A DNA stretch of 64,000 nt from the NCBI RefSeq assembly GCF_900142205.1, contig NZ_FRAA01000001.1, positions 50,889-114,888 of the forward strand, read 5' to 3'. This DNA comes from Reichenbachiella agariperforans (GTDB taxonomy: Bacteria; Bacteroidota; Bacteroidia; Cytophagales; Cyclobacteriaceae). Of this stretch, positions 36,724 to 39,996 are shown piece after piece (the first letter of the stretch is position 1; every line of letters begins with the position of its first letter). Made by a program: the position numbers and the translations under genes. Below the pieces are notes generated by a model, which was not told where the DNA came from, searched no databases, and worked only from the letters and a program-made list of their open reading frames with translations.

Positions 36724-38622
36724 ATGACAGAATCTAAAGTCAAAAATTTCGTAATTGATTTTGACAGCACTTTCACAAGAGTAGAAGCGCTAGATGTACT
36801 TTGCACACTGGCTTTTGAGAATGAAGCAGAAAAAAAAGTAGCATTGGCAGAAATTGAGCGAATAACTAATCTTGCCATGGGGGGTGATTTGTCTTTCAGG
36901 GAATCCCTAGAAAGCAGGTTGAAAATACTGAGGGCTAATAAAAATCATATTCCGTTATTAATAGACAAATTAAAAGCCCTCGTTTCCAAATCATTCATTC
37001 GAAACAAAGCATTTTTAGAAAGTAATGCTGATCGTGTTTACATTCTTTCGAACGGATTCAAGGAGTTCATCTCCCCTATCGTCAAAGAATATGGCATCAA
37101 GGAAGATCATGTCTATGCGAACACTTTTGAGTTTGACGAAAACGGGACGATCACTGGTTTTGACAAAGACAACATCCTATCACGTAGCAAAGGAAAACCA
37201 GCGTTGATAGATTCGCTTAACCTTGAAGGTGACATCTACGTCATTGGTGATGGATACAATGACTATGAAATCAGAAAAGAAGGAAAAGCCAATAGGTTCT
37301 ATGCCTTCACCGAAAACGTAAAAAGACAAAACGTAATGGACTATGCTGACCACATAGCCCCATCACTCGACGAAATACTATATCATAATAATATGGAAGG
37401 AGCACTCTCATACCCTAAAAACAGAATTAAGATTCTACTACTAGAAAACATCCACAGTAAAGGTGTCAAAATAGTAGAAGAAGAGGGATATCAGGTAGAA
37501 GTTCACCCAGCAGGTTTGACTGAGGACGAACTCGTAGAAAAAATCAAAGACGTATCGATACTCGGGATCAGGTCTAAGACGATTGTCACCAAAAGAGTTT
37601 TGGACAATGCAAAACGTCTCATGTCGATTGGTGCGTTTTGTATCGGAACCAATCAGATCGATCTAACTGAGTGTACTAAGAGAGGTATTACGGTGTTCAA
37701 TGCACCATACAGCAACACGAGATCTGTAGTAGAACTTGCGATTGGAGAGATGATCATGTTGATTAGAAACCTACCAGACAAAATTGCTAAAATGCATGTC
37801 GGAAAATGGGACAAATCAGCAAGCAATAGTTTTGAAGTCCGAAACAAAAAACTCGGAATTGTAGGATATGGTAATATCGGAAAACAGCTTTCGGTATTGG
37901 CTGAAGCGATGGGACTACAGGTCTATTATTACGACATAGACGAGCGTCTCCCTATTGGTAACGTGACTAAGTGCAATTCTCTCAATGAAATGCTATCACA
38001 AGTAGATATCGTGTCTCTACATGTGGATGGCAGAAAAAGTAATAAAAACATCATCGGCAAAGAGCAATTTGACGCAATGAAAGATGGGATCATCTTCATG
38101 AATCTATCTCGTGGACATGTGGTCGATATCCCTGAATTGAAAAAAGCCATAGAGTCGGGTAAAATAGCAGGTACTGCCATAGATGTGTTCCCCGAAGAGC
38201 CTTTGAGTAACAACCATGAATTCGTGTCAGAATTGAGAGGATTACCAAACGTGATTTTGACTCCACATATCGGTGGTAGTACATTAGAAGCTCAAGAAAA
38301 TATCGCTGAGTTCGTGCCTAATAAGATTATTAGCTATATCAACTCTGGATCCACTACTAATAGTGTTAACTTCCCTAACTTGACACTACCTAAGCTAGAG
38401 AATGCACACCGCTTCATTCACGTTCATCACAACAAACCAGGTATCATCGCTGAGATTAACAACATCTTAGCCAAGCATGACATCAACGTCATGGGACAAT
38501 ACCTCAAAACCAACGAAATCATGGGGTATGTGATTACAGACATCGATAAAAAGTATGACAAGGATGTCATTAAGATCATGAAAAAGATCGAAGGGACAAT
38601 CCGATTCAGAGTGTTATACTAA
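36724..38622 (+). CDS. serA: Fused phosphoserine phosphatase and D-3-phosphoglycerate dehydrogenase
   Basis: The product is 632 residues. Residues 1-225 are a HAD-IB phosphatase (SerB-like), with nucleophile pair Asp12/Asp14 in VIDFDSTFT, ILSNG, and VIGDGYNDYE. Residues about 235-555 are a 2-hydroxyacid dehydrogenase, with the NAD site VGYGNIGKQL at about 380, catalytic Arg in LSRGHVVD, Glu in FPEEPL and His in LTPHIGGST. Residues about 562-632 form an ACT domain (HHNKPGIIAEINNIL) that usually senses serine. The chain thus carries the first and the last step of serine synthesis. The middle step (SerC) is encoded next on the same strand. A strong terminator follows. Confidence 0.95.
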   Translation: MTESKVKNFVIDFDSTFTRVEALDVLCTLAFENEAEKKVALAEIERITNLAMGGDLSFRESLESRLKILRANKNHIPLLIDKLKALVSKSFIRNKAFLESNADRVYILSNGFKEFISPIVKEYGIKEDHVYANTFEFDENGTITGFDKDNILSRSKGKPALIDSLNLEGDIYVIGDGYNDYEIRKEGKANRFYAFTENVKRQNVMDYADHIAPSLDEILYHNNMEGALSYPKNRIKILLLENIHSKGVKIVEEEGYQVEVHPAGLTEDELVEKIKDVSILGIRSKTIVTKRVLDNAKRLMSIGAFCIGTNQIDLTECTKRGITVFNAPYSNTRSVVELAIGEMIMLIRNLPDKIAKMHVGKWDKSASNSFEVRNKKLGIVGYGNIGKQLSVLAEAMGLQVYYYDIDERLPIGNVTKCNSLNEMLSQVDIVSLHVDGRKSNKNIIGKEQFDAMKDGIIFMNLSRGHVVDIPELKKAIESGKIAGTAIDVFPEEPLSNNHEFVSELRGLPNVILTPHIGGSTLEAQENIAEFVPNKIISYINSGSTTNSVNFPNLTLPKLENAHRFIHVHHNKPGIIAEINNILAKHDINVMGQYLKTNEIMGYVITDIDKKYDKDVIKIMKKIEGTIRFRVLY

Positions 38623-38625
38623 AAA

Positions 38626-38836
38626 TGAAAAATCCCGTCCAAATGGACGGGATTTTTTTCTAAGGATCGTGTGGTTTAGTTAAACCTCTATAAGTAAAGA
38701 TTTGAGCTATCCAAATGATTCAATCGTCCACTGTTATCTCCAAAGAGTTCCGACAAGTCGAAATGAGGCCTGATTTAGCCACCAGAGTCACCCGGTACTG
38801 TTATGATCTATAGTTTAATAAACTTATGATCCAAAG
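38626..38836 (-). ncRNA. Structured non-coding RNA, probable 6S-like (ssrS) RNA
   Basis: On the minus strand a TATATTTG box (38849-38842) is followed about 6 nt later by a transcript start near 38836, and the shared terminator at 38630-38659 gives an end. The body is about 175 nt before the terminator. Its two ends pair: GGATC (38832-38828) with GATCC (38668-38664), then GTTTA with TAAAC, AAA with TTT, and CTATA with TATAG. The centre can fold further (for example around TTCGACTTGTCGGAA). One long, interrupted hairpin with its own promoter and terminator and no open frame is the 6S RNA plan. The 6S identity is inference; a structured RNA here is better supported. Confidence 0.55.
38630..38659. 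terminator. Strong bidirectional Rho-independent terminator
   Basis: AAATCCCGTCC (38630-38640), AAAT loop, GGACGGGATTT (38645-38655), then TTTTC. The perfect 11-bp stem ends serBA on the plus strand. On the minus strand it is followed by TTTTTCATTTTT, so it can also end a minus-strand RNA. Confidence 0.88.
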
Positions 38837-38841
38837 AGGTG

Positions 38842-38849
38842 CAAATATA
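38842..38849 (-). promoter_or_regulatory. -7 box TATATTTG for the minus-strand RNA
   Basis: CAAATATA on the plus strand reads TATATTTG on the minus strand, an exact TAnnTTTG match, placed about 6 nt before the 5' end of the paired RNA body. No clear -33 motif is visible. Confidence 0.5.
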
Positions 38850-38871
38850 TCTAGTTTCCGTTCTTTTGTAA

Positions 38872-38879
38872 TAATTTTG
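38872..38879 (+). promoter_or_regulatory. -7 box TAATTTTG for serC
   Basis: This exact TAnnTTTG match lies 34 bp before the serC ATG and is identical to the box ahead of serBA. It overlaps a small dyad GCGTT-6-AACGC (38879-38894). It faces away from the minus-strand RNA promoter, making a divergent pair. Confidence 0.5.
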
Positions 38880-38913
38880 CGTTGTTTATAACGCATATGT
38901 CTCAACTTTATAG

Positions 38914-39996
38914 ATGAATAAAATTTTCTTCACTCCCGGCCCATCTGCCTTGTATTTCACAGCAGAACAACACATAAAGAATGCCATCAAAAACGATATT
39001 CTTTCCATTAGCCATAGAAGCAAACAATATGTGAGTATTCACCAAGAAACGGTCGAATCTCTCAAAAAACTCCTCAACTTACCCGATGGATATCACATCG
39101 GATTCACCTCTTCTGCTACAGAAGTATGGGAAAGGATATCCGAGAATTTGATTGATCAAAACTCATACCATTTCGTAAACGGCTCATTTTCAGAGAAATT
39201 CCATCAGGCAGCTCAAGACCTTGGAAAAAATGCCATCTTGGATCAAGTAAAGCCTGGCTCCAATCATGACCTGATCGCGGCAGTCATTCCAGACAATGTA
39301 GAATTGATCGGATTAGCACAAAATGAAACCAGTACAGGAGCTATGTTACCTGTGGCTGATATAGAGGCGCTAAAGAGAAACAACCCAAACAAACTATTGG
39401 CTGTGGATTCTGTAAGTTCTCTCCCGATTACCAAATATGACTTCAGTATGCTAGATACCTTGTATTTTTCTGTACAAAAATGCTTCGGTCTTCCTTCTGG
39501 TCTAGGGGTATGGATATACAATGACAAGTGTTTGGAAAAGGCTCAAAAGCTGAAAGAAGCGGGGAAATATCACAACACCTACAATAGCCTACTTAGTATT
39601 GATAAATTTGCTCAAAAGCATCAAACAAGTTGTACGCCTAATGTTCTAAATATTTACTTGCTAGGGCAAGTTGTCAAGGACATGCTCAACAAAGGCATTG
39701 ATCAAATCAGACAAGAAGCAGCCTATAAAAGTGCTTTGATTTATAACCTGTTCGATACACACGAAAAGCTTACTCCATTTGTCACTGAAAAGAAATTCAG
39801 ATCCGTAACGATAGGTGTAGCCGAAGTAACCGGAGGTGCTGAGAAGCTGATGTCCGCGCTCTCTGACAAAGGAATGAACGTGGGTAGTGGCTATAGCCAG
39901 TTCAAAGGTAAGCATATCCGAATAGCCAACTTCCCTACTCATTCTAAGGAACAAATGGAAATGCTAGTCGATTCAATCAATGGGATTGATTTTTAG
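38914..39996 (+). CDS. serC: Phosphoserine aminotransferase
   Basis: The product is 360 residues, the usual SerC length, class V aminotransferase fold. FFTPGPSALYF opens it, ISHRS follows, and the PLP lysine is Lys189 in SVQKCFGLPSG. It converts 3-phosphohydroxypyruvate and glutamate to phosphoserine. With the fused SerA/SerB gene upstream it completes the serine pathway. A separate TAATTTTG promoter suggests it is transcribed apart from serBA, although the matching boxes hint at shared control. Confidence 0.93.
   Translation: MNKIFFTPGPSALYFTAEQHIKNAIKNDILSISHRSKQYVSIHQETVESLKKLLNLPDGYHIGFTSSATEVWERISENLIDQNSYHFVNGSFSEKFHQAAQDLGKNAILDQVKPGSNHDLIAAVIPDNVELIGLAQNETSTGAMLPVADIEALKRNNPNKLLAVDSVSSLPITKYDFSMLDTLYFSVQKCFGLPSGLGVWIYNDKCLEKAQKLKEAGKYHNTYNSLLSIDKFAQKHQTSCTPNVLNIYLLGQVVKDMLNKGIDQIRQEAAYKSALIYNLFDTHEKLTPFVTEKKFRSVTIGVAEVTGGAEKLMSALSDKGMNVGSGYSQFKGKHIRIANFPTHSKEQMEMLVDSINGIDF

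Follow-up and report, generated by a model that had tools for sequence, protein, structure and literature searches.

The gap between serBA and serC (serBA stop 38622, serC start 38914) of Reichenbachiella agariperforans contains a small-RNA gene on the minus strand, at about 38837-38628 of the window (the whole 64,000-nucleotide stretch of DNA that was analysed), and we are highly confident that this locus encodes the 6S RNA of this Reichenbachiella. Comparison between genomes establishes a conserved RNA gene, with a predicted promoter box and terminator, homologous to the 6S-Flavo and Bacteroidales-1 RNAs. The RNA is too diverged for standard annotation and is a 6S RNA outside Rfam families RF01685 (6S-Flavo; Weinberg et al. 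2010, PMC2864571) and RF01693 (Bacteroidales-1) as curated; it is not filed under either because it stays below their cut-offs. The 6S RNA is a general transcription brake, rarely mentioned for Bacteroidota in the literature searched, and the primary sigma factor of these bacteria reads an unusual promoter. In the same literature no paper on a Cytophagales 6S RNA was found by title or by the start of the abstract; Wehner et al. 2014 (PMC4615782) lies outside the scope of that search.

The features of the locus are as follows.

38842-38849, minus strand: promoter -7 box TATATTTG of the Bacteroidota sigma-A type (exact TAnnTTTG in sequence)
38628-38837, minus strand: 6S-like RNA gene, predicted at about 210 nt with terminator (about 180 nt without); both ends predicted
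38812-38837, minus strand: 5' arm of the closing stem (38837-35, 38832-28, 38823-19 and 38818-12), from the lowest-energy fold
38794-38811, minus strand: 5' strand of the central bubble, A/U-rich, unpaired in the consensus
38704-38793, minus strand: apical arm with covarying helices, GGCCUC block, variable hairpin and ACAGUGGA block, from the alignments
38790-38793, minus strand: 5' arm of core helix 1 (GGGU; partner GCUC at 38707-38704), from the 63-sequence alignment
38682-38703, minus strand: central bubble, 3' strand, carrying a small hairpin (38703-38698/38687-38682), helix 6 of alignment A3
38659-38686, minus strand: 3' arm of the closing stem (38686-80, 38678-74, 38668-64 and 38661-59), from the lowest-energy fold
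38628-38657, minus strand: intrinsic terminator of 13 pairs, starting 6 nt past the serBA stop codon
38872-38879, plus strand: TAATTTTG, probably the -7 box of serC, whose promoter points the other way (from sequence)

An earlier note on this DNA had pointed to a minus-strand promoter box, and TATATTTG at 38849-38842 is indeed an exact TAnnTTTG. A sigma-A box of this form has been reported at -12 to -5 in F. psychrophilum (PMC9723704). With that spacing, the position of TATATTTG puts the predicted start near 38837, next to the 38836 proposed in the note. The motif as such is not rare (59 occurrences in the 64-kb window versus 52 expected). Of 62 homologous cores, 38 have its strict form somewhere in the preceding 80 nt, compared with 3.55 expected in shuffles, and none of the seven rny-linked loci among the 62 has it. 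At the other end, the strong terminator of the note is recovered as the 13-pair hairpin at 38657-38628, the one site of such kind in 38500-39000 (0.2 expected). It may act for both convergent transcripts, that of the RNA and that of serBA. The frameless body, put at about 175 nt in the note, comes to about 180 nt, and no ORF of at least 60 aa overlaps 38626-38849 on either strand; a coding gene in the gap was rejected on this ground. Upstream, TATATTTG on the minus strand and TAATTTTG, the probable serC box, on the plus strand stand back to back within 38842-38879, and the promoters of the RNA and of serC should therefore overlap. serBA itself (36724-38622, 632 aa) is an apparent fusion of HAD-type hydrolase, 2-hydroxyacid dehydrogenase and ACT domains.

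None of the Rfam families reaches its gathering cut-off in the 64-kb window. At E ≤ 10, 24 Rfam rows are obtained for the locus, and the highest bit score is that of 6S-Flavo, which matches 38819-38682 on the minus strand along the whole 108-position model (35.1 bits, E 0.001 for 401 bases). With strict filters, the locus is the only 6S-Flavo match reported in the 5.0-Mb genome at E ≤ 10 (E 0.003) and the best one among 194 genomes of the order. Thus the covariance check suggested in the earlier note gave a full-length match to 6S-Flavo, but one of 35.1 bits against a gathering cut-off of 85, so that the RNA is not a member of RF01685 as curated; Bacteroidales-1 and the enterobacterial 6S RNA (RF00013) gave no match at the locus at E ≤ 10. 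Nor was Bacteroidales-1 matched in G000 at E 0.001, and RF01693, with a gathering cut-off of 60 bits, has no match in the window or in the genome. BSnc120 has a lower E value than 6S-Flavo (1.1e-4, 28.6 bits), a score carried by the terminator hairpin, and rnk_pseudo (E 0.0023), Thr_leader (0.0086) and MicC (0.056) cover the same hairpin. All four were rejected, as they lie far below their cut-offs and their names come from other bacteria or leader elements.

No genome among the 194 of the order and the 149 of the class that were searched has a 6S-Flavo match reaching the 85-bit cut-off. The three strongest 6S-Flavo loci found in the 149 class genomes (L047-L049, all of one family) score 75-83 bits. 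Nine loci with the arrangement zapA-6S-rny among L047-L056 score only 30.8-82.9 bits, against the required 85, and the gathering cut-off of RF01685 looks too strict.

A single sequence would not be convincing; it is conservation and covariation in relatives that raise the RNA above chance. By DNA similarity it was found in all seven other Reichenbachiella genomes and in three more genomes of the family (G013, G014 and G023); a match in G045 spans the terminator stretch only. The founding alignment consists of 12 family sequences, of which the one from G179 (L019) came from the 6S-Flavo search, and model R1 was derived from these 12, with none from outside the family. Their consensus has its nested helices in the same order as 6S-Flavo. 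In its 17 core pairs 94.1% of the cells are paired, compared with 26-47% when partners are slid, 11 pairs have double changes (4.4 in shuffles), and none of 500 shuffles reached the covariation score.

The larger alignment, A3, comprises 63 of 64 source sequences, L050 being left out because it missed the E limit of 0.05. A3 was fitted to the model and so leans towards it, which bears on its covariation and G-U counts: 87.9% of the cells are paired versus 29-56% with slid partners, 234 cells have double changes versus 82 in shuffles, and 184 G-U against 35 A-C cells favour the minus strand, as do the paired cells (1259 versus 1110 of 1433). Covariation in relatives, the check named in the earlier note, is present in the same alignment, where 19 of 23 core pairs have double changes. 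Core helix 1 is paired in 98.8% of cells, with changes on both sides in all four pairs, and helix 6, the hairpin of the 3' bubble strand, in 84.8%. A plus-strand leader of serC was rejected, since the G-U and A-C cells, the promoter box and the terminator favour the minus strand. What the note had called a separate structured RNA appears to be a free-standing gene with its own promoter box, pairing ends, terminator and covariation in relatives.

The comparative structure has the closing stem, central bubble and interrupted apical arm that make up the rod of the 6S class. The 5' edge of the bubble is partly shared, as aAaCTaAca in the family and the order group and TAAACTCAACa at other loci, and the UUAAAC beside the 5' bubble strand is partly common to rny-linked 6S RNAs. 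Shared sequence at this edge would fit a conserved pRNA template, whose side of the bubble is probably the 5' strand (38794-38811) with the adjoining block 38823-38812. As inspection by eye, without a count, found no conserved TAnnTTTG mimic in the bubble, the pRNA start is placed only by inference.

The lowest-energy fold pairs both ends of the RNA in four blocks with 20 pairs (38837-35 with 38661-59, 38832-28 with 38668-64, 38823-19 with 38678-74, and 38818-12 with 38686-80), and the four consecutive pairing blocks between the ends described in the note are found there. The energy of the fold is ordinary without the terminator (z -1.03, 31 of 200 shuffles equally good) and low with it (z -3.36, none of 200), and the plus strand of the locus folds about equally well (z -3.17). 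The closing stem, which lies outside the model, was examined in 62 of the 63 sequences, as L127 lies at a contig edge. The median for native duplexes is -23.7 kcal/mol, against a mean of -14.0 kcal/mol when partners are swapped between homologs, and in 48 of the 62 homologs at most three of 61 swapped partners pair equally well. The duplex of the window is the weakest of all 62 (-12.4 kcal/mol, with 17 of 61 swapped partners equally good).

Inside the closing stem, the free fold and the consensus disagree. The window sequence can form all 23 consensus pairs (apical arm and 3' hairpin) as standard pairs, but the free fold has none of them and keeps only the closing stem; imposing the conserved core costs 9.7 kcal/mol (-29.9 versus -39.6 kcal/mol). 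In addition, closing block 4 (38818-12/38686-80) and the conserved 3' bubble hairpin (38703-38698/38687-38682) are mutually exclusive, and with the core imposed either arrangement has -29.9 kcal/mol. The pairing plan of the earlier note holds for the ends, but the conserved inner helices are different from those of the lowest-energy fold. Release of polymerase from 6S RNA involves refolding of the RNA. A switch between block 4 and the hairpin would suit such refolding by analogy, without being evidence for it. Because the identification as 6S RNA rests on comparison, the fold conflict leaves it standing.

Searches with our own models connect the RNA to 6S RNAs of other families. In the window, R1 matches the core at 38823-38674 with 161.2 bits, this sequence being one of those used to build it. 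The reciprocal test of R1 covered 40 loci (209 kb, E up to 10) that had been picked by 6S-Flavo, the question being whether R1 picks the same place. It did so in nine of the 12 class loci of other families (L047-L058), with E values of 0.006, 2.7e-4 and 1.2e-4 for L047, L048 and L049, 5e-6 to 2e-8 for L052-L056, and a weak 0.22 for L051. The loci missed are L050, L057 and L058. L050 has the fourth-best 6S-Flavo score among the class loci (49.3 bits) and adjoins zapA and rny, and its genome has an R2 match at the same place (E 0.053). The order gave 30 6S-Flavo loci, including the window's own (L017); R1 was applied to L018, which it matched at E 0.003, and to L020-L028, while L029-L046 lie outside the reciprocal test. 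R1 landed on none of the nine weak matches L020-L028, which are probably chance.

The widened model R2 was built on 63 sequences, seven of which come from class 6S-Flavo loci. It lands on all nine loci matched by Bacteroidales-1 (E 3e-7 to 0.015), four of which exceed the RF01693 cut-off, and R1 alone reaches four of the nine at E ≤ 0.05. In terms of homology, then, the locus has a full-length 6S-Flavo match below the cut-off together with reciprocal matches of the models. The proposal of a 6S-like RNA, which the earlier note had drawn from the hairpin plan, is now supported by homology too, through the 6S-Flavo match, R1 (9 of 12), R2 (9 of 9) and covariation; the polymerase binding it mentioned would follow by analogy.

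Of the 148 Cyclobacteriaceae genomes, 137 have a single R1 match each, and seven of these had contributed to the model. Among the genomes sampled across the order, R1 matched all 16 of the family (two of them used in training) and 15 of the 178 from other families, with two of those 15 matches short and likely chance; R2 found no match in 162 of the same 178. Among the 11 family genomes without an R1 match, L137, L140 and L141 look like chance, and five genomes have no match of any kind; L138 is a blank row, as is L083 in another set. Two of the 11, G472 and G378 of one genus, have what appear by eye to be shortened 6S-like RNAs (L136 and L139, 1501-1623). A 6S-like RNA of R. versicolor (L008, about 1494-1614) resembles them in that its apical arm is reduced to a short GCCC...GGGG hairpin, and the shortening has perhaps happened twice. 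Two R2 matches each occur in G273 (C93:5495-5659 and C37:11980-12137) and G304 (C3:61134-61291 and C7:46683-46841), possibly second 6S copies or contamination.

Outside the family, the gene is typically found between zapA and rny. rny adjoins nine of the 12 class loci L047-L058 (the exceptions are L051, L057 and L058); of the 24 best-scoring R2 loci from other families (L145-L168, seven families) it flanks 20, or 15 of 19 without the five training genomes. zapA is on the other side in all 29 of these rny-flanked loci (nine class and 20 R2), a number in which some places are counted twice; Pfam identified ZapA at one of the loci and in the genome of the window. In Proteobacteria, ssrS is also reported to follow zapA (PMC7641849). 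The zapA-rny gap measures 34-124 bp in nine Cyclobacteriaceae genomes, 63 bp in that of the window, and at nine family rny loci no 6S RNA was detected between the two genes (Rfam E ≤ 1, R1 E ≤ 10).

Instead, in Reichenbachiella the RNA lies between serBA and serC in all eight genomes examined. Among 49 family loci, which are those fetched, mostly best-scoring and not a random draw, serC or serBA is within 1.5 kb in 35, neither in 14, and rny in none. The RNA is divergent from serC in all 33 family loci with serC within 1.5 kb, with L134 (29% identity) doubtful, and on the strand opposite serBA in all 21 where serBA was seen. It appears that in Cyclobacteriaceae the 6S gene left the zapA-rny gap for a place beside serC, in divergent orientation. 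Most simply, it moved once, presumably in the direction of serC, and further moves or insertions came later. Two contigs assigned to Candidatus Roizmanbacteria MAGs (L065 and L067) carry serC (42-46% identical) beside a serBA relative, as in the window; they reflect either gene transfer or mis-binned contigs. A more far-reaching proposal, which we hold to be rather unlikely, is that 6S left zapA-rny and was captured by the serC upstream region, that initiation of the RNA and of serC may exclude each other, and that the Bacteroidota have a single 6S family. If true, global polymerase control would be wired to serine demand, and 6S-Flavo, Bacteroidales-1 and the Cyclobacteriaceae branch would be one family, split only by Rfam models and cut-offs.

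It might be argued from this neighbourhood that the RNA is dedicated to serine biosynthesis and regulates serC or serBA, given its place between the two genes in 8 of 8 Reichenbachiella genomes and its divergence from serC at 33 of 33 loci. We regard this as highly improbable, because 14 of 49 family loci have neither gene within 1.5 kb, other families have the RNA beside rny, and the elements it conserves are 6S elements. Another reading accepts descent from 6S RNA but holds that in Cyclobacteriaceae the RNA has lost polymerase binding and taken up another task. The moved gene, the score below the Rfam cut-off, the free fold unlike the consensus and the reduced apical arm of R. versicolor and of two genomes from a different genus would all agree with such a change. 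On the other hand, the genome yielded no other 6S candidate, none was found at rny in nine family genomes, and the core pairs and closing stem are maintained by compensating change; we regard a change of task as highly improbable.

That a terminator next to an unremarkable spacer might give the same picture by chance has a virtually nil probability. The z of -1.03 without the terminator and the abundance of TAnnTTTG in the window would be expected in that case, but the single R1 matches in 137 of the 148 genomes of the family and the strong covariation already refute it.

If the locus encodes a functional 6S RNA, its most likely mode of action can be pictured by analogy. The rod with its bubble would mimic an open promoter and occupy RNA polymerase carrying the primary sigma factor, so that sigma-A transcription would be damped as growth slows. 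When nucleotides return, the polymerase would start on the 5' bubble strand and transcribe into the closing stem, making a short pRNA (template at about 38808-38836), and pRNA synthesis would refold the RNA and free the enzyme.

The present evidence links RF01685 with RF01693 and records a probable relocation of the gene from beside zapA to beside serC. R1 now recovers the 6S RNA in most genomes of the family, and the 6S-Flavo cut-off is reached in none of the genomes searched. A direct test in Cytophagales becomes possible, of sigma-A polymerase occupancy and of the pRNA start.

Among known systems, 6S-Flavo has its conserved blocks and nested helices in the same order as the Reichenbachiella RNA, along the full 108 positions of the model. 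The differences are that the Reichenbachiella RNA lies beside serC and not in the zapA-rny gap, that its bubble sequence is diverged, and that it scores 35 bits against 85. The enterobacterial 6S RNA (ssrS, RF00013) has the same architecture. Its place after zapA, as reported for Proteobacteria (PMC7641849), is also that of the RNAs of relatives outside Cyclobacteriaceae, but its model has no match at the Reichenbachiella locus at E ≤ 10. For Bacteroidales-1, Rfam states '6S-Bacteroidales RNA suggested'. A study of B. thetaiotaomicron reported detection of a Bacteroides 6S RNA and evidence for pRNAs (PMC7366714), and this RNA is probably that of RF01693. By eye, Bacteroidales-1 shares AAACU, CCGAG, GGGCC, GGUGGA-like and CUCAAAUC blocks with the Reichenbachiella RNA, whereas its four loci above the cut-off have neither rny, zapA, serC nor serBA within 1.5 kb.
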